From Proteiniphilum saccharofermentans (GTDB lineage: Bacteria > Bacteroidota > Bacteroidia > Bacteroidales > Dysgonomonadaceae), in contig NZ_LT605205.1 of the NCBI RefSeq assembly GCF_900095135.1, positions 2,418,001-2,482,000 on the forward strand: a DNA stretch of 64,000 bases. Reading direction: 5' to 3'. The position numbers and the translations under genes were made by a program. The notes below the pieces were generated by a model. It ran no database searches. It saw only the letters and a program-made list of their open reading frames with translations, and had not been told where the DNA came from. Below are positions 26,101 to 52,903 of the stretch, piece after piece (within the stretch, counting starts at the first letter, position 1; every line of letters starts with the position of its first letter).

Positions 26101-26119
26101 AATGAAACAATATTGCATT
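26101..26119 (+). promoter_or_regulatory. Putative zinc-type operator upstream of the ABC/ZIP operon
   Basis: AATGAAACAATATTGCATT is an imperfect 8-3-8 dyad. It differs by two bases from the site before the COG0523 GTPase gene (49418-49436). It lies 15 bases upstream of the TACTTTTG element and so covers the -33 region, as expected for a repressor site. The outer AAATG...CATTT pattern is like known gammaproteobacterial Zur boxes. Confidence 0.55.
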
Positions 26120-26134
26120 TATAAAATATTATTC

Positions 26135-26142
26135 TACTTTTG
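26135..26142 (+). promoter_or_regulatory. -7 promoter element (TACTTTTG) of the metal operon
   Basis: It matches TAnnTTTG, 94 bases before the chosen start of the ABC ATPase gene. Confidence 0.5.
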
Positions 26143-26189: not shown

Positions 26190-26210
26190 GCATGAGAACA
26201 ATTCTCATGC
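26190..26210 (+). promoter_or_regulatory. Perfect 21-bp palindrome in the leader of the metal operon
   Basis: GCATGAGAA and TTCTCATGC are exact arms around CAA. It lies between the promoter and the ATPase start at 26237, and it contains an upstream ATG in frame. It could be a second operator or an RNA hairpin in the leader. Confidence 0.5.
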
Positions 26211-26236
26211 CCGTTTCAGAAATACTTCGTATAAAA

Positions 26237-26875
26237 ATGAATAATAAAGCACTAACAACAAGCAATTTGATTTTTTCCTATAACAGGTCGATTACATTCG
26301 GTTTTCCCGATATCGACTGCGCGCCGGGGAATCACTGCATCATTATGGGGCCGTCGGGCTGCGGAAAAACAACCTTTCTGCATCTTATTGCCGGATTGTT
26401 AAAGCCTGATTCGGGAGAAGTGATCATCCAAGGTATCGATACCGTCCGGTTACATAGTGGTGAAGCCGATCGGTTCCGGGGAAAAAATATCGGGATCATC
26501 TACCAGAAACCGCACTTTATACAATGGCTGACGGCTTTTGAAAATTTACAGATCGCACGTTATCTCAATAATCTGGCAACGGAAAATGAAGATATAAACC
26601 ACCTGCTTCGTTCTTTAAATCTGGAAGACAAAGCAAAGAGCAAGCCGTCACAAATGAGCCAGGGAGAATTACAACGCTTGTCGATTGCACGGGCAGTGAT
26701 CAATAAGCCCGCCCTTATCCTGGCCGATGAACCGACATCGAGCCTCGACGACAAAAATTGCACGGAGGCATTGAATCTACTCAAACGCCAAGCAGAGGAA
26801 CTGCAGGCAAGCCTTGTGATCGCCACCCACGATAAACGGTTGCTGGATCATTTTCCAAACAGGATTTTCTTATAA
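26237..26875 (+). CDS. ABC transporter ATP-binding protein (ZrgC/LolD-like)
   Basis: A MacB/LolD-class ATPase of 212 residues: Walker A GPSGCGKTTFLH (about residue 38), Q-loop YQKPHF, signature MSQGELQRLSIARAV, Walker B LILADEPTSSLDD and the H-loop IATHDKR. The start at MNNKALTT is preferred because the frame's first ATG falls inside the 21-bp palindrome. It is followed after 65 bases by its permease. The gene set (ATPase, FtsX-type permease, small secreted DUF3299-like protein) resembles the zinc-regulated ZrgABCDE locus of Vibrio. That link is inference from gene order and families. Confidence 0.85.
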   Translation: MNNKALTTSNLIFSYNRSITFGFPDIDCAPGNHCIIMGPSGCGKTTFLHLIAGLLKPDSGEVIIQGIDTVRLHSGEADRFRGKNIGIIYQKPHFIQWLTAFENLQIARYLNNLATENEDINHLLRSLNLEDKAKSKPSQMSQGELQRLSIARAVINKPALILADEPTSSLDDKNCTEALNLLKRQAEELQASLVIATHDKRLLDHFPNRIFL

Positions 26876-26940
26876 AACTCTTCAGGGACTACCCCTCCAC
26901 GACAAAGAATTGTCTCATTTTAATTTATGCACATTACATC

Positions 26941-28242
26941 ATGAATATATTTTCACTGAACAGGAAACAAATCAAGGCAAAGCCCTTGTCTTCGATATTG
27001 AATATCTTTTTATTTGCCACGGGTGTCGCTATTATCTCCTTCCTGTTTCTCACAACAGAGAAAATAGAAAACCAGTTGAATAACAACGTGGCCGGCATCG
27101 ACCTTGTAGTGGGAGCGAAAGGGAGTCCTTTGCAACTTATTTTAGCAGGGATTTACCATATCGACCATCCCACCGGAAATATCCAATACAAAGAAGCCCT
27201 CGAACTCACCAAAAATCCCCTGATCAAACAGGCGGTTCCTTTGGCATTGGGTGATAGTTACCGTGGATTCCGTATAGTCGGTACCGACCAGACATTCCCG
27301 GAACTTTATCATGGGCAGTTGAAGGAAGGAATGTTGTGGAAAACCGATTTTGAAGCAAACATAGGATCAAAAGTCGCGGAAAAGACAGGATTAAAAATTG
27401 GAGACAGCTTTACGGGTGTGCACGGTTTTATAGAAGAAGCAGGACATGCACACGATGAGCACGAATATATTGTAACAGGTATCTTCGAAGAAACGGGGAC
27501 GGTGCTGGATCAGTTGATCCTTACAAATATCGCGAGTGTGTGGAAAATCCATGAACACCATCATGAGCACCACGATGACGAACACATGGAGTCCGAAGGC
27601 GCACATGTTGCGGAAGCGGAAGGAGCTCACGATCATCATCATGATGACGAACACGTGGATGCACATGAACACGGGCATGATTACGCTCACCATAGTGACG
27701 ATAACAAAGAGATCACCCTACTGCTGGTTAAATACACCAATCCGATGGGAGCGATCACCCTACCACGGTTGGTTAACTCTTCCACTAATATGCAGGCAGC
27801 ATCGCCGGCACTGGAGATAAACCGGTTGTATTCGTTGATGGGAGTCGGAGTGCATACCATACGTCTTATTGCAGGCTTTATCATTATAATATCTGCTTTC
27901 AGCATTTTTATTTCACTGCTCAATTCATTAAAAGAGCGCAAGTATGAACTAGCCCTGATTCGTTCGATGGGAGGAAGCCGTAATAAACTGTTCTCTCTTG
28001 TTGTTATGGAAGGGATCATCATCGCATTCATAGGCTATCTACTGGGACTGGCACTGAGCCGGTTAGGCATGCTGTTGGTTTCATATTATACTGAAACCAA
28101 CTATCATTATAGTTTACAGCAGTGGTTTAATATCAACGATTTTTATTTTTTATTTGTTTCACTGATAATCGGATTGCTATCGGCGCTGATTCCGGCCATT
28201 AAAGCGATGCGTACAGATATCTCCAAAACCCTTAGTGAATGA
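26941..28242 (+). CDS. FtsX-like ABC permease with a histidine-rich periplasmic loop
   Basis: The 433 residues have one N-terminal membrane helix (about 18-40), a long periplasmic domain, and three C-terminal helices in the FtsX pattern (about 300-425). The periplasmic part keeps NNVAGIDLVVGAKGSPLQLI, typical of this MacB-like subgroup. Between about residues 200 and 255 lies a segment very rich in His, Asp and Glu (EHHHEHHDDEHM, HDHHHDDEHVDAHEHGHD), a likely zinc-binding buffer. ABC proteins of this class usually move or extract envelope substrates rather than import ions, so its action in metal supply is unclear. Confidence 0.85.
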   Translation: MNIFSLNRKQIKAKPLSSILNIFLFATGVAIISFLFLTTEKIENQLNNNVAGIDLVVGAKGSPLQLILAGIYHIDHPTGNIQYKEALELTKNPLIKQAVPLALGDSYRGFRIVGTDQTFPELYHGQLKEGMLWKTDFEANIGSKVAEKTGLKIGDSFTGVHGFIEEAGHAHDEHEYIVTGIFEETGTVLDQLILTNIASVWKIHEHHHEHHDDEHMESEGAHVAEAEGAHDHHHDDEHVDAHEHGHDYAHHSDDNKEITLLLVKYTNPMGAITLPRLVNSSTNMQAASPALEINRLYSLMGVGVHTIRLIAGFIIIISAFSIFISLLNSLKERKYELALIRSMGGSRNKLFSLVVMEGIIIAFIGYLLGLALSRLGMLLVSYYTETNYHYSLQQWFNINDFYFLFVSLIIGLLSALIPAIKAMRTDISKTLSE

Positions 28243-28287
28243 GACGAACAGACAAATGTTCCATACAACCTTAGTGTTAAAAAATAT

Positions 28288-28758
28288 ATGAAGACAAAAA
28301 CTATTTTTCTATTTTTTCTCCTGTGTGCAATCTACTTCCCGGTAAATGCACAACAGCCGAAACCGCAGACCGTTTCCTGGGACATGCTGAAAGATGTAAC
28401 ATGGTCTCAAAAATACATAGCTTCCCTTTCGGGATATTACCAGATGCCTGAATTCGGAAGGCAGATAGAATTTCTCGATAACAGAACTGTTATCATACAG
28501 GGATTTTATGTGCCGGTAGACGTGGAAGGGACTATTTTCGCACTCTCCGAAACACCTTCCTACATGTGTTTTTTCTGTGGTGTGGGAGGAATTGAATCCG
28601 TGATGGAAATATCTGTAAAAGAGGGACACCACGATTTAAAACATGTCCGCACCGACCGGTATATACAAGTCAAAGGAATATTCAGTATCAACAGGGATGA
28701 TCCGGAACACCTGATGTATCTGTTAAAAGATGCGGAACTGGTAAAGGTCGTAAGATAG
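28288..28758 (+). CDS. Secreted DUF3299-like protein with a CFFCG motif
   Basis: A 156-residue protein with a clear signal peptide (MKTKTIFLFFLLCAIYFPVNA). The mature part has the DUF3299-style core IQGFYVPVDVEG followed by a cysteine pair in SYMCFFCGVGG (about residue 95) in place of the usual proline-rich stretch. In gammaproteobacterial zinc-regulated loci a DUF3299 protein accompanies the same ABC pair. The two cysteines could bind a metal or form a disulfide. It lies 45 bases after the permease in the same operon. Confidence 0.7.
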   Translation: MKTKTIFLFFLLCAIYFPVNAQQPKPQTVSWDMLKDVTWSQKYIASLSGYYQMPEFGRQIEFLDNRTVIIQGFYVPVDVEGTIFALSETPSYMCFFCGVGGIESVMEISVKEGHHDLKHVRTDRYIQVKGIFSINRDDPEHLMYLLKDAELVKVVR

Positions 28759-28805
28759 TCCACTTCCGATTGAAACAACCAAGAACTGATTTTAAAATTG
28801 AAAAA

Positions 28806-29585
28806 ATGATGGATAACATAGGGTTATATGCTTTATTAAGTACGCTCGTCGTGAATCTGCTTTCTTTTGTCGGGGCGTTCCTTTTTTTCCTTAAAACCAA
28901 AGTATTGAAACAGATATTACCGTTACTGATCTGCTTTTCCATAGGAGCTTTACTGGGAAATGCCTTTTTCCATCTTGTCCCTGAATCCTATTTTCACCTT
29001 CCGTCGGCTCATCTCACCTCGTGGCTCATTTTAGCGGGATTTTTGCTCTTTTTCATCATCGATCAGGTATTGCATATCCATACCGATACAGAGTCCCATG
29101 CGCACCCCGACAGCCATGCATCGGGAATAAAGCCCTATGGATATCTGAGCCTCTATGCCGATGGGATTCACAATTTCACTGATGGTATTCTGATCGGCGC
29201 GGCATGGATGGTGATGCCGGAATTGGGGCTGGCAACAACGTTAGCCATTATTATGCATGAGATCCCTCAGGAAGTGAGTGATATCGGAATTTTGCTCCGT
29301 GCAGGATTTTCTAAAAGAAAAGCATTATTGTTTAATTTTGGAATAGCCTGTGCAGCCATTCTGGGGACTGTTCTCACACTATGGCTGGGACATCGCATAG
29401 GACATTTATCCACTTACATATTACCGGTTGCAGCCGGAGGATTTATTTATCTTGCGGCTGGCAGTCTGTTACCTGAAATCCTGAAAGAAACCGCGAAACG
29501 GAATTTGTTGTTACATCTGGTTGTGATCCTGGCAGGCTTGGGTGTGATGTATTATCTCAGCCTGCACAGCGGGCATCATCATTGA
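28806..29585 (+). CDS. ZIP-family divalent metal transporter
   Basis: An inner-membrane importer of zinc or a related divalent ion, with about eight helices in 259 residues. The metal-path motifs are HNFTDGILIG (helix IV, about residue 128) and MHEIPQEVSDIGILL (helix V, about 155). The loop before helix IV is His-rich (HIHTDTESHAHPDSHAS) and the protein ends in HSGHHH. The start at MMDNIGL is chosen; the longer frame adds a polar leader unlike the family. It closes the operon, 47 bases after the DUF3299-like gene, and is the strongest evidence that the operon serves metal uptake. Confidence 0.92.
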   Translation: MMDNIGLYALLSTLVVNLLSFVGAFLFFLKTKVLKQILPLLICFSIGALLGNAFFHLVPESYFHLPSAHLTSWLILAGFLLFFIIDQVLHIHTDTESHAHPDSHASGIKPYGYLSLYADGIHNFTDGILIGAAWMVMPELGLATTLAIIMHEIPQEVSDIGILLRAGFSKRKALLFNFGIACAAILGTVLTLWLGHRIGHLSTYILPVAAGGFIYLAAGSLLPEILKETAKRNLLLHLVVILAGLGVMYYLSLHSGHHH

Positions 29586-47580: not shown

Positions 47581-47705
47581 CTACCCGAAAAAATCAGATA
47601 CGGAATGACATTGCTCAAACAGTTGTTTGGGAGTTAATCCTGAAAACATCTTAAAATCACCGATGAAATGTGATTGATCGTAATATCCGCTATCGTATGC
47701 TAATT
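47581..47705 (-). pseudogene. AraC-family regulator, C-terminal remnant
   Basis: The frame reads LAYDSGYYDQSHFIGDFKMF and then SGLTPKQLFEQCHSVSDFFG to the stop. This is the second helix-turn-helix and tail of an AraC regulator. It is joined to the broken oxidoreductase gene by a deletion near 47700. Confidence 0.8.
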
Positions 47706-48223
47706 CTGTTAAGTTTTCCCGCACCTACCGCATAGGCCACGGAACGCATCGGACTTGTATTGTCGCCACAAGCAAAGACATTGGCTATACTTGTTTTCTG
47801 GAACATATCTGTTTTGATAAGCCCTTGTTCCGTTAGTTCGCAACCTAACATTTCGGGTATTTTGCAATGTTGTTCAAACGCAGGACGTGCGTAAAGGGCT
47901 TGGAGCGCAAAAGTTGAATGATCCTTAAAGACGATTTGCCTGATCTTTCCGTTTTCGTGATCGAAGGAAGCAATCTCTTTCTCAATCAACGGAATGTTAT
48001 GTCTGGCAAATTTATCCGCTTGTTCCTGTGTAAAATCGGCCTTGCCGTTCGTGAAAACAGTCAGGTGCCGGGTAAGGTTCCGTACCAATTGCGCATAGTG
48101 CAAGGCAAAATACCCGTTGGCTAAAATACCTGTCCTTTCATTCTTTACTTCATAGCCATGGCAATAGGGGCAATGGATGACCGTAATTCCCCAACATGCT
48201 GAAAAACCCTCGATGTCTGTCAT
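47690..48223 (-). pseudogene. Thioredoxin-reductase-like flavoprotein, both ends missing
   Basis: The 177 residues contain the redox motif in HCPYCHGYEVKN (about residue 18), an NADPH-domain piece and the start of the C-terminal FAD motif VFACGDNTSP with VAYAVGAG (about 150-170). The N-terminal GxGxxG FAD domain is absent and the C-terminus switches into the AraC remnant after GAGK. An intact relative has about 300 residues, so this is a deletion product. Confidence 0.85.
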
Positions 48224-48255: not shown

Positions 48256-49329
48256 TCAGGGATAAATAAAATCTTTGTCCAGGCACTGCGCCAACATCTT
48301 TTCCAATCCCCGTGAGGCAAGGTCTTTACCGATAAACACCAACCTGCTTTTGGGCATTTCCTCAGGGGGCCATCTCTCCCCCATTGTAATGGCCAGCATA
48401 TTAGAGACCGACTGGACGATCACCTTTTGCGGCTCATCGTTTGCCCATATAAAACCTTTCACCCTGTATATATTTTTCGCCTGGATATTGAGGAACATCA
48501 TCAGGCGATGGCCGAACCGGTCGAGGTTGAACGGCCTGTCGAACACAAAGCTGAGCGAACTGATGCTGTGATGGTGAAATTCCTCATGATTCGGATGTGT
48601 GTCAGGGTGTGAATGGTTCTCTACATCGGCATGTGGGGCCGGATGAAGAATGGGATGATCGTGCCCGTCCTTACCGGTTGCCCCGGATGGGAATATTTTG
48701 CCGTCGAAATCATCACGGTTGAATGCCATTATTTTTTCCAGAGGATAACCCGACTCTTTATCCCCCGATAGTATGACGGCAAACGGATTGATATTTCGAA
48801 GCAATTCCTCCAATCCGGAAAGATGTCCTTTACGCACCGTATCACATTTATTGATCAGGATGATGTCCGCAAAGGTAATTTGCTTGCGCGCCTCTTCGGT
48901 TTCTTCCAGTTGAAAATCGATCTGTTGGGCATCCACAATGCAGATGGTCCTTTCCAATTTGTAGCACTCCTCTATTTCCGGATAGACCAGGAACGGCTGT
49001 GCGATGGTCGCAGGGTCGGCTATGCCTGTGGTCTCGATGATCAGTTCGTCGAATTCATCGTTCCGTTTCCACAATGCATCCAACAGGTCGAACAGGTCTT
49101 CATTGAGGCTACAGCAAAGACAGCCGTTGTTCAACTCAAACACGTCCGTGCCGGGTGCGACGATCAGCCCGGCATCAATACCTTCCTCACCCAGTTCGTT
49201 TTCAATGATAAACGGGCGTATTCCTTTCCGGTAAGTAATGTATTCGTTCAGAAAGGTGGTCTTGCCGGCGCCAAGAAACCCGGAAATGATGGTTACGGGT
49301 TTTGCTGTTTCATATCGATTATTGTCCAT
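48256..49329 (-). CDS. COG0523 (CobW-type) metal-chaperone GTPase, probably for zinc
   Basis: A G3E GTPase of 357 residues: Walker A GFLGAGKTTFLN (about residue 17), the metal-site motif NNGCLCCSL (about 67), the INKCD guanine motif, and a His-rich region (about 225-265, HDHPILHPAPHADVENHSHP) before the CobW C-terminal domain. Such proteins deliver metals to clients; zinc-linked ones are induced by low zinc. The start MDNNRYETAK is chosen because the longer frame begins inside the promoter area (TATATTTG at 49397-49404). Upstream lies the same dyad as before the ABC/ZIP operon, which supports the zinc link. Confidence 0.9.
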   Translation of the reverse strand: MDNNRYETAKPVTIISGFLGAGKTTFLNEYITYRKGIRPFIIENELGEEGIDAGLIVAPGTDVFELNNGCLCCSLNEDLFDLLDALWKRNDEFDELIIETTGIADPATIAQPFLVYPEIEECYKLERTICIVDAQQIDFQLEETEEARKQITFADIILINKCDTVRKGHLSGLEELLRNINPFAVILSGDKESGYPLEKIMAFNRDDFDGKIFPSGATGKDGHDHPILHPAPHADVENHSHPDTHPNHEEFHHHSISSLSFVFDRPFNLDRFGHRLMMFLNIQAKNIYRVKGFIWANDEPQKVIVQSVSNMLAITMGERWPPEEMPKSRLVFIGKDLASRGLEKMLAQCLDKDFIYP

Positions 49330-49396: not shown

Positions 49397-49404
49397 CAAA
49401 TATA
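49397..49404 (-). promoter_or_regulatory. -7 promoter element (TATATTTG) of the COG0523 gene
   Basis: It matches TAnnTTTG on the minus strand, 67 bases before the chosen start, with the operator dyad 13 bases upstream. Confidence 0.5.
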
Positions 49405-49417
49405 CAACTTTACCGCA

Positions 49418-49436
49418 AATGCAACACTGTTTCATT
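49418..49436 (-). promoter_or_regulatory. Putative zinc-type operator upstream of the COG0523 gene
   Basis: On the minus strand it reads AATGAAACAGTGTTGCATT, an 8-3-8 dyad with one mismatched pair. 17 of 19 bases match the site at 26101-26119. It overlaps the expected -33 region. Confidence 0.55.
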
Positions 49437-49483: not shown

Positions 49484-49717
49484 TTAAACCTTTATAAAAT
49501 CATCGTCCGGAAGTTGTTCTTGCAATATTCTGAAAAGAATATCCACTTTCGCTTTTCCTTCAGAGGGTTCTTCAACAAAATGAATATAGGTGAGTGTGGC
49601 TTTTCTCAATTCCGGGAAATTCAAATAACTTGGTGCATCAAAGACCAAAAGAGAGTGGTCAGGAAGCAAACCGCGAACCCCATGACCAAAGGTAGAAAAG
49701 TAGAAAACATCGTCCAT
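49484..49717 (-). other. Possible small gene or gene remnant overlapping the end of feoB
   Basis: A 77-codon frame overlaps the last 97 bases of feoB in another phase. Its second half, after the feoB stop (about 49484-49620), looks coding: FPELRKATLTYIHFVEEPSE and ILFRILQEQLPDDDFIKV. No start near the feoB stop is convincing. It may be a fragment fused by deletion or a translationally coupled small protein. Confidence 0.3.
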
Positions 49718-51867
49718 TTCAAGCTCCTGGTCTCCTTATAAATCGTAAAAATAGTAGTGGAACAAGGATTGTGGAGTAAGCTGAACAGCATGAGATTTAC
49801 AGCTGTCAGTGTTGTCCACCCCCCGGCATGTAAAATATCTCTCGTCTGGTTGATGGAAGCGGCATCGAACATCACTCCGGCACCATCTCCCACATCCGGC
49901 ATCCCCGTCATCAGCACAGTGAGCATCAGTATTGTAGGAATCACGATTTCATTGGCCGGGATGGCAATGATATAAGCCAGTAAGATAACACCATTTAAAC
50001 CGAAAACGAACGCCAATGGGTTTGACCAGTCGATAAAATATTCGGCCAGACTAATCCCGTCTATTTTAACATTGCCCACCAACCAGATGATAATCCCGGC
50101 GGGAATAGCAAAAATAATGGCTCGCCATAACACAAAAATGGTCCGGTCGATGAGCGAAGTATATAATGTTTGCCATATCCGTGGAGGACGATACGGGGGT
50201 AGTTCCAGGCTGAATGTGGAAGCTTCCCCTTTCAACACGGTTTTACTCAGTCCCCACGAAACGATAAGGCTCAGGAAGATTCCCAATAAGGCAACACCGA
50301 CAACTGCCCCGGCGGAAACAATTCCGGCCATGCCTGCCGGTACAGCCGCCCCAATAAAGATGGTGGCAATCAGGATTTGGGTTGGCCACCGTCCGTTGCA
50401 CAGCGAAAAATTATTGGTAATAATGGCGATGAGACGCTCCCTCGGACTGTCAATAACCCGTGCCGCCACAACCCCGGCAGCGTTACATCCGAACCCCATG
50501 CTCATGGTAAGCGCTTGTTTACCGTGCGCTCCCGCTTTGCGGAACAGATTATCCATGTTGAAAGCCACACGGGGAAGGTATCCGAAATCTTCCAGCAGCG
50601 TAAAAAGTGGGAAGAAGATAGCCATTGGCGGAAGCATGACGGATATCACCCATGCCATCGATAAATAGGCTCCGTCAATTAAAACGCCACTCAGCCACCA
50701 TGGAAAATGAGCCGCCATGGTCAGTTCTTTCAACAAAGGATGCAATTTGTCAACCAACAGAGAAAACAACAAACCCGAAGGGTAATTAGCGCCCGAGACA
50801 GTTATCCAGAAAACACCTGCCAGCAGCAGAAACATGATAGGAAAGCCCAACCACCTACTCGTTACGATTTTATCGATCTTCAGATCGAGGCTGTAAGGTC
50901 TGCTCCCCGATATGGAAACTGTTTTCCGGGCAACCGCCGATGCTTCCGAGTAAATGGTTTCGATGACGGCATCGTGGAAGTTGAGTCCCAGATTCCAACG
51001 CTCCGTATTTGCCGCAGACAATATCTCTTCCCGCTCTTTTTCTGTCGGTAATTTCCTCTTTGAACTATCCGCATTTTCCGAAAGGGTAGAAGGTAAATCT
51101 TGCTTCAACAGGCCCAGATCACCCGACCGAATGGCGTCGATAATACTTTGGTCGCCTTCGAGTAGCCGCAAAGCGACCCAACTCACATTGGGAAGATCAG
51201 AGAAAACCTCGTTTATCTTTTCAGTAACAACCGATATTGCATGTTTTAAATTGGCCGGCTGGTTTTTTGTCCGGCGGGGCCGGCAAACATATTTCCCTGA
51301 AGCCACCTCTTCAATGGCAGCCAGCAACTCTTCCATTCCTTGTTTGCTCCGTGCCGACGCGGCAATGACCGGAATACCCAACTCGCGTGAAAGTGCACGT
51401 ACATTTATTTCGATATGATTTCGCCGGGCCTCGTCCATCAAGTTAAGACAGAGTATGGCGCGATCAGTTATTTCAAGGATCTGGAGAGCCAAATTCAAAT
51501 TTCGTTCCAGACGGGTTGCGTCAGCGACTATAACCGTAACATTCGGTCGGCCGAACAGTATGAAATCGCGGGCTACCTCTTCATCGACACTCGTAGAAAG
51601 TAATGAATAAGTTCCCGGCAAATCGACCACTTTATATCGTTTTCCACCGTAGGAATAAGCTCCTTCAGCACGGGTTACGGTTTTACCCGGCCAGTTGCCC
51701 GTATGCTGCCTCAATCCCGTGAGGTTATTGAAGACCGTGCTTTTCCCCGTATTGGGATTTCCTGCCAGCGTAATGACATAATCGGTATTTTCCAAGTCTA
51801 CCCCCAAACGCATCAGGTTTTCCTTATGATATAGCGGGCAAGCTGCGCAACTATTCTGTATGTCCAT
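49621..51867 (-). CDS. feoB: FeoB-type ferrous iron / manganese transporter
   Basis: A G-protein-coupled membrane transporter of 748 residues. The GTPase domain has G1 [17 protein letters not shown] (about 35), G3 [10 protein letters not shown] (about 75) and G4 NLMDEA, followed by the FeoB cytosolic region and two Gate domains (about eight helices) with [15 protein letters not shown]. The N-terminus carries a cysteine pair (CAACPLYH). The start MDIQNSCAA is chosen; it overlaps the end of the preceding gene by 17 bases. FeoB moves Fe2+, but Porphyromonas gingivalis FeoB2 with a DtxR neighbour moves Mn2+, so the metal is open. Confidence 0.93.
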
Positions 51868-52903
51868 AATACTCCTTTTCTTTGTTCCTGATGAAAATCT
51901 GATCGGACTGGTTTCTTCGAATCCCGATGGTAGTCCCCATAATGCGATAACCGACCGGGTCGCCTGACGCGCTTTGGATGATGGCGGAAATCCGCTGTCC
52001 GGGAACAATGCCCAAATCCATCAATCTGCGACGCTGTTGCCCTTGAAAATTGAGTGAAATCCCCACAACTTCCGCTTTTTCCCCAATCTTAAGCGACGAA
52101 AGCCGTTCTTGTTTGACACAAGCAACGTTTTCAGCCGCCACTATTTCTACGGTAACTTCCTTTGCGAATTGAGGGATCAGTGTCCGCTCTTCGCCATCGG
52201 CGGCGAATGTTATGCTATCTTTATCCGATTTCAATACATATATTTGCAATCCGGGGTACAGCCCTTCAATGGCAAGTTGCTGATAAATCTCCACCGGTTC
52301 ATCCTCTATATGGATGATACGTGCCACATCACCCTCTTTTAACCCGCTCAACGGTTTCCCTTTATGTGTGGGGAGCTCCCCCGAGGCGGTAGGAATGGGA
52401 TCACCGTGCGGATCAAAAGCCGGATTACCGATACGGGCAGCAAGCTTATCAATATCTTCGCCGGACATTGTGTGCTCCAGATAATCGGCCTGGGTATGCC
52501 ATTTGGTATGGGCCAATCCGGTTTCATCGGCGAGGTAACGCTCCCAGAGGCGGTGCATCCGGATGACACGCAAAGCGTAAGAGCGTCCCGCTTCGGTCAG
52601 GATATATGTATCGTTTTTCGAGGAGACCAGCTCCAGCGATTGAAGGCGCTTTAAAAGACTGTTCAATTTTTCTTGTGATATGCCTAAATTGTTCAAAAGA
52701 TTTTCCGATTTGCATACCGCGCCTTTGTATTCGCAATCGTATAAATATTTTAGAGCGTCTTCCAACAACACACGTTGCCTATAGGCTCCCAATTTTTTTA
52801 ATTTTGCCAACAACCCTTTCTTGGGCCAAAACACCCAAAACAGGAAAAGTATAAGCAAAGCAAAAATCGATACCGAAACAATGGCATATAAATAATTCTC
52901 CAT
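51851..52903 (-). CDS. Membrane-anchored DtxR-like protein with C-terminal FeoA domains
   Basis: The 350 residues start with one membrane helix (about 5-27, [20 protein letters not shown]). A DtxR-like winged-helix and dimerisation part follows (about 40-170, with [14 protein letters not shown]). The C-terminal part has SH3-like FeoA segments (about 185-250 and 270-345, [19 protein letters not shown] and GTTIGIRRN). It precedes and overlaps feoB, taking the place of a separate feoA. The membrane anchor makes a normal repressor role doubtful; it may instead act as the FeoA-like partner of FeoB. Confidence 0.85.

Follow-up and report, generated by a model that had tools for sequence, protein, structure and literature searches.

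Zur regulons of E. coli, B. subtilis, Pseudomonas and Neisseria have a Fur-family regulator with two CxxC pairs, a palindromic operator in the promoter and zinc-uptake targets, including COG0523 genes, ZnuD-type receptors and ZIP transporters. An operator before the regulator's own gene is frequent in these regulons, but not universal. The E. coli Zur box has the consensus GAAATGTTATANTATAACATTTC (PMC2895646). COG0523 genes (yciC) behind Zur sites were described by Haas et al. (2009, PMC2770081). The sites reported there are mainly from Firmicutes and proteobacteria, also from cyanobacteria; the main text does not contain 'bacteroid'. ABC units with a separate ATPase, a MacB/FtsX-type permease, a PA4066/ZrgE protein and a Zur-type operator are ZrgABCDE of Vibrio and PA4063-PA4066 of Pseudomonas (PMC9820375, PMC8561739, PMC11481552). 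The literature disagrees on the direction of transport: zinc import by ZrgABCDE (PMC9820375), export by PA4064/65 (PMC11481552). Zur regulons, COG0523 genes and Zrg-type operons are already known. A description of a Zur operator of Bacteroidota was not found in the literature searched, RegPrecise being outside the search, and the available text of two Zur reviews does not contain 'bacteroid'. RegPrecise 3.0 includes a collection for Bacteroidaceae and covers Zur in more than 25 groups.

The window, that is the whole stretch of 64,000 nucleotides of Proteiniphilum saccharofermentans DNA that was analysed, contains two dyads that are variants of the palindrome TGCAACA-N-TGTTGCA (Table 1). One precedes an ABC/ZIP operon, the other a COG0523 gene. 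A first-pass annotation had counted 17 identical bases of 19 at a distance of 23 kb. A direct comparison of both sites gave exactly this: 2 of the 19 positions differ and about 23 kb lie between the dyads. Each dyad is followed by a TAnnTTTG motif, which we take to be the -7 promoter element of Bacteroidota, and the measured spacers agree with the 13 to 15 bases claimed. The gene names of the annotation (ABC ATPase, FtsX/MacB-type permease, 156-aa protein, ZIP transporter and COG0523 GTPase) also proved correct in the Pfam searches.

Table 1. Coordinates of the putative operators, promoter elements, downstream genes and candidate regulator (positions in the window; regulator, positions in the genome).
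Feature	Position	Strand	Evidence and remarks
Putative operator dyad, ABC/ZIP operon	26101..26119	+	AATGAAACAATATTGCATT; 2 mismatches to AATGCAACANTGTTGCATT; matrix rank 2 in the window, 15.7 bits
TACTTTTG, presumed -7-type promoter element	26135..26142	+	spacer of 15 bases from the ABC/ZIP dyad
ABC transporter ATPase	26237..26875	+	Pfam ABC_tran 5.5e-33 (longest ORF, from 26192)
FtsX/MacB_PCD-type permease	26941..28242	+	Pfam FtsX 6e-15, MacB_PCD 5.8e-7
c156, OB-fold protein, signal-like start (by eye)	28288..28758	+	structure model, PDB match 4hsp
ZIP-family metal transporter	28770..29585	+	Pfam Zip 4.3e-42; internal ATG at about 28806
COG0523 (G3E) GTPase	48256..49329	-	Pfam cobW 1e-47, CobW_C 4.3e-22 (longest ORF)
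TATATTTG, presumed -7-type promoter element	49397..49404	-	spacer of 13 bases from the COG0523 dyad
Putative operator dyad, COG0523 gene	49418..49436	-	AATGAAACAGTGTTGCATT; matrix rank 1 in the window, 17.5 bits; identical in the congener G021
Fur-family regulator, 135 aa	997293-997700, including stop	+	

The ATPase likely starts at ATG 26237 and not at the start of the longest ORF; the resulting N-terminus, MNNKAL, agrees with the congener G007. Likewise, the COG0523 protein likely starts at ATG 49329, differing from the longest ORF. It contains GFLGAGKT, CLCC (the CxCC class motif) and a histidine-rich stretch. The ZIP protein reached 69.4 bits with the ZupT model, under the cut-off of 252. 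The gene following COG0523 (47690-48223, minus strand) is a pyridine-nucleotide oxidoreductase frame of 177 aa. It looks truncated here; its positional counterpart in G021 encodes 302 aa. On the other side, the next gene before the COG0523 promoter is feoB (49621-52008, also minus strand), and iron and zinc genes adjoin at this point.

When up to 3 mismatches were allowed, a scan of the window returned 4 matches, with 0.20 expected, and none of 100 shuffles gave 4. The matches represent 3 places, because the nearly palindromic COG0523 dyad was counted on both strands. Whole-genome searches (4,414,963 bp) found AATGNAACANTNTTGCATT with 0 mismatches only at the two window dyads. The symmetric AATGCAACANTGTTGCATT with at most 3 mismatches is present at 3 places in the 4.41-Mb genome, the reversed control at none. 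The third place, 997188-997206, lies in the intergenic region that separates a Fur-family gene from a divergent gene for a TonB-dependent receptor. Close matches in this genome precede only this regulator/receptor pair, the ABC/ZIP operon and the COG0523 gene, which supports the single shared zinc regulon that had been proposed for the window. On the receptor side, the third dyad is 11 bases away from TATATTTG. The receptor has ZnuD as top PDB sequence match (6.7e-20; next match 1.7e-9). Two DUF4625 proteins follow the ZnuD-like receptor (L166 5649-6747, minus strand), an arrangement kept in G021 and G007. One has a histidine-rich tail with 10 histidines in 60 residues. They are possibly zinc-binding lipoproteins.

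The association of dyad and regulator was examined in the Fur clade of the regulator. A single scan of named genomes provided 80 loci; 3 with too short upstream regions were dropped and 77 kept. The loci are mostly from Bacteroidales, for example Labilibaculum, Marinifilum, Mariniphaga and Alkaliflexus. The dyad was present with at most 2 mismatches upstream of the regulator in all 77, while the reversed pattern reached 4 at best. In comparison, 199 scrambled palindromes with up to 3 mismatches matched 0.8 upstream regions on average and 24 at best. When perfect inverted repeats of 6 bp were counted blindly, TGCAAC-N3-GTTGCA came first, with 40 of 77 upstream regions; shuffles gave 3 or fewer. 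The palindrome is preferentially flanked by A/T. In 54 of the 77 regions, the start of TAnnTTTG precedes the 19-bp dyad by 4 bases, placing the operator over -7/+1 in these cases; the motif starts 5 bases after the dyad in 11 and is not near it in 5. BLAST of the flanks of all 80 loci detected a TonB receptor in 68, a COG0523 gene in 9, a ZIP gene in 3 and FolE in 2.

A matrix was trained on the 77 clade sites, none of them from this genome. Besides the two dyads, the next best place in the window had 4.6 bits; the site at the genome's own fur gene scored 22.6 bits. Three simulated genomes of the same size contained on average 0.33 places reaching the score of the COG0523 dyad, 1.7 reaching that of the ABC/ZIP dyad and 0 reaching that of the own fur site. 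The matrix helped to dismiss weaker candidates. A 3-mismatch match within the ZIP gene (29319-29337, minus strand) was outside the matrix's best 8 in the window and is attributed to chance. Genome matches with 2 mismatches (L003-L008) were rejected with scores of at most 8.3 bits. The loose pattern WWTGCAWCANTGWTGCAWW with up to 3 mismatches had 87 matches per strand in the genome against 34 in the control and was abandoned as mostly noise. Eleven further places of the loose pattern were scored (L247-L257); among the matches listed, the best were one of 14.4 bits within an ORF and an intergenic one of 13.9 bits. The intergenic dyad, TTTGCAACAGTATGGCATT at 4393513-4393531 (L251), is located between ORFs of 61 and 460 aa and is a possible further target.

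A search for the regulator covered 39 genomes of the genus, of which 29 had a match at E 0.001 and 10 had none. An orthologue with at least 65% identity was present in 23 of the 39, the own genome included. A dyad of 22.6-29.7 bits was upstream of all 23, and a TonB receptor within 1.5 kb in 22. The ABC/ZIP operon was rarer, in 3 of the 39 genomes, each time with a dyad; the ZIP protein is 92-94% identical in the two congeners G021 and G007. Their ABC operons have the dyad AACGCAACRATGTTGCAATT with 18.8 and 21.7 bits, respectively. The spacer to TACTTTTG is 32 bases there versus 15 here, hence 17 bases longer, and the dyads occupy different positions in the alignment. This suggests a site turnover at the ABC operon. 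G007 has a second dyad of 16.5 bits within the 3' part of the permease gene (L134 2852-2870).

One of the window dyads, most likely the one at the ABC operon, may be a chance likeness. With 1.7 equal-scoring places per simulated genome, it could not be claimed on its score alone, and it is off the alignment position of G021 and G007. It is supported by its position at the operon promoter and by the orthologues: homologous operons have a dyad in G021, G007 and G369. We regard a chance origin as extremely improbable. The conservation before orthologues that the first-pass annotation had named as a check was observed for the COG0523 gene (G021, where the dyad is identical), the ABC operon (G021 and G007) and the regulator (23 of 23 in the genus).

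In relatives, the gene sets of the window and the regulator come together. The COG0523 protein and the permease were used as queries against 198 genomes of the order, which led to G179. Its gene order is two dyads-fur-COG0523-COG0523-ATPase-FtsX-c156, the dyads having 1 and 2 mismatches to the 19-bp pattern. Similar dyads precede fur-COG0523 loci in three other genomes (G154, G222 and G118), in G154 in the order fur-COG0523-MerC-FolE-COG0523-COG0523; in G118 the fur frame was recognised by the clade scan (L223), on a contig taken by its length to be that of the COG0523 gene. In G369, a 29.7-bit dyad separates receptor-small protein-ZIP-COG0523-fur from an ATPase piece-FtsX-c156; a 9.1-bit dyad lies beside it. 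One operator is flanked there by both gene sets of the window together with regulator and receptor. The location of COG0523 genes beside fur, FolE and other COG0523 genes resembles the observations of Haas et al. (PMC2770081). Of 393 genomes of the order, 31 contained the exact TGCAACANTGTTGCA, at 39 places in total, and 362 had no exact core match; the control was present at 1 place. For 30 exact-match loci, one per genome, a fur-family gene reading away within 250 bp was found in 16, a TonB receptor in 1 more and neither in 13. Fur-family and zinc-uptake genes are also located behind matches in further families of the order, as the scan of related genomes envisaged in the first-pass annotation would have it.

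The regulator is the closest relative in its own genome of the Fur proteins encoded in G179-type clusters, with 40-41% identity to two of three compared and 36% to the third. The next Fur paralogue of the genome shares 25-28% identity with these cluster-encoded proteins. A protein tree left the deep order open and did not resolve the regulator as sister of the cluster-encoded proteins; the orthology therefore rests on best hits and the shared operator. The paralogue itself (914992-915390, L012) lies, by eye, behind a gene for a P-type metal ATPase. The window dyads could serve such a different DNA-binding protein that shares the motif. In G268 (L139) and G076 (L147), the exact dyad indeed adjoins fur-family genes that are more diverged; in G268 it precedes a gene resembling, by eye, a cation-efflux carrier. 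Some congeners also have a GC-richer relative of the dyad, TTGCAACC-T-GGTTGCAA, beside a paralogue (L283, L286 and L287; 17.7 bits in L286 and 14.2 in L283), which may be a sister operator serving metal efflux. Yet the 3.3-kb locus of the paralogue in this genome has no dyad (best score -5.5 bits), and the clade regulator has the dyad at its own promoter in all 23 genus loci. A second binding protein is very improbable on this evidence. The comparison of the genomes makes it highly probable that a Zur-type Fur-family repressor, the regulator in Table 1, uses the dyad as its operator.

The assignment to Zur is less direct on the protein side. The regulator has a FUR domain (PF01475, 39 bits, cut-off 23.1), and the CxxC pairs of the structural zinc site, C93, C96, C129 and C132, are conserved without exception in the 14 regulators aligned. 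Unlike the regulators of known Zur regulons, it is far under the NCBIfam Zur cut-off (30.8 bits versus 167), with about equal scores for the Fur (34.2) and PerR (30.5) models. Searched alone against the PDB, its best match was E. coli Zur (4mtd, 5.3e-5), closely followed by PerR (8.3e-5) and Fur (1.1e-4). The clade profile matched the Fur structure 9ire best (1.4e-11), ahead of E. coli Zur (7.7e-8). These sequence tests give no firm assignment to Zur over Fur or PerR. A further difference to known Zur regulons concerns the targets: zinc-free ribosomal protein genes, which the first-pass annotation had listed among the candidates, follow none of the three genome sites.

The operator was compared with the E. 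coli Zur box (PMC2895646). The 21-bp outline with the outer AAATG/CATTT is the same, so the resemblance to gammaproteobacterial Zur boxes noted earlier holds for outer arms and spacing. It does not extend to the inner arms, CAACA/TGTTG here and TTATA/TATAA in the E. coli consensus; the operators are not equal. From the targets and these outer arms we infer zinc as the signal. With the same regulator and operator, the metal could instead be iron, manganese or cobalt in a Fur/Mur-like regulon. Neither the profile nor the NCBIfam matches separate Zur from Fur and PerR, feoB is the gene immediately preceding the COG0523 gene, and for the related operon PA4063-PA4066 a link to cobalt-pyochelin export has been reported (PMC11481552). 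We nevertheless consider another metal improbable: the receptor is closest to ZnuD, in relatives, the regulator gene is clustered with genes for ZIP, COG0523, FolE and the PA4066-type ABC unit, and the outer arms are identical to the ones in the E. coli Zur box. The two window dyads very probably share one zinc-starvation control circuit.

The ABC/ZIP operon has the separate ATPase and MacB/FtsX-type permease of the Zrg and PA4063-PA4066 units, with some differences. A ZrgA/PA4063-like gene is absent among the four operon genes (26192-29585), all of which were otherwise identified. The permease itself contains a histidine-rich stretch from about residue 204, with 18 histidines in 60 residues (18 in G021, 19 in G007 and 17 in G179), and a ZIP gene closes the operon. 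The position of a PA4066/ZrgE protein is likely taken by c156. The protein of this genome had no Pfam match, and PDB sequence searches gave chance matches, mostly antibodies. A structure model built on an alignment of 26 sequences (pLDDT 88.1) had its best PDB match in 4hsp (E 6.9e-4, TM 0.44), with other OB folds close behind; 4hsp is PA4066 (PMC8561739). The sequence profile of the c156 family reached 4hsp only at E 0.51, and one of four other family members scanned passed the cut-off of DUF3299. On the model, c156 is likely a relative of PA4066/ZrgE (DUF3299), with a modest fit that does not prove kinship. The family is widespread in Bacteroidia (56 of 395 genomes). At 29 c156 loci in other genomes of the class (L291-L319), an FtsX permease gene is in the flanks of 19 and a tandem second c156 at 10. 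A strong dyad was within the 1.5-kb flanks in 2 of the 29, flanks that often stop short of the operon start.

The proposed regulation would work as follows. At sufficient zinc, a zinc-loaded dimer of the repressor would sit on the palindrome and keep RNA polymerase off. It would cover the -33 region at the targets and the -7/+1 region at most regulator promoters. At low zinc, the repressor would release the palindrome and the genes would be expressed. The released set would comprise the ZnuD-like outer-membrane receptor, the ZIP permease, the COG0523 metallochaperone, the repressor itself and the histidine-rich MacB/FtsX-type ABC system with its PA4066-like protein. The ABC unit may import zinc, as argued for Zrg, or export, as argued for PA4064/65.

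A wider reading is more tentative, and we consider it less likely than not. Bacteroidales, perhaps much of Bacteroidota, may control their response to zinc starvation through a Zur lineage that uses an operator of its own, TGCAACA-N-TGTTGCA. The regulon would include a ZrgA-less ABC unit, in which a histidine-rich loop of the permease replaces the metal-binding protein and which works together with a ZIP permease. If the proposed regulon is right, an operator and a gene set for zinc limitation in Bacteroidales would be at hand, and the motif would allow the prediction of zinc regulons from genomes of the order. The c156 protein, the His-loop permease and the DUF4625 lipoproteins would be candidate zinc genes. 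The ABC unit would also provide a second lineage for deciding between import and export by transporters of the Zrg/PA4063-66 type.
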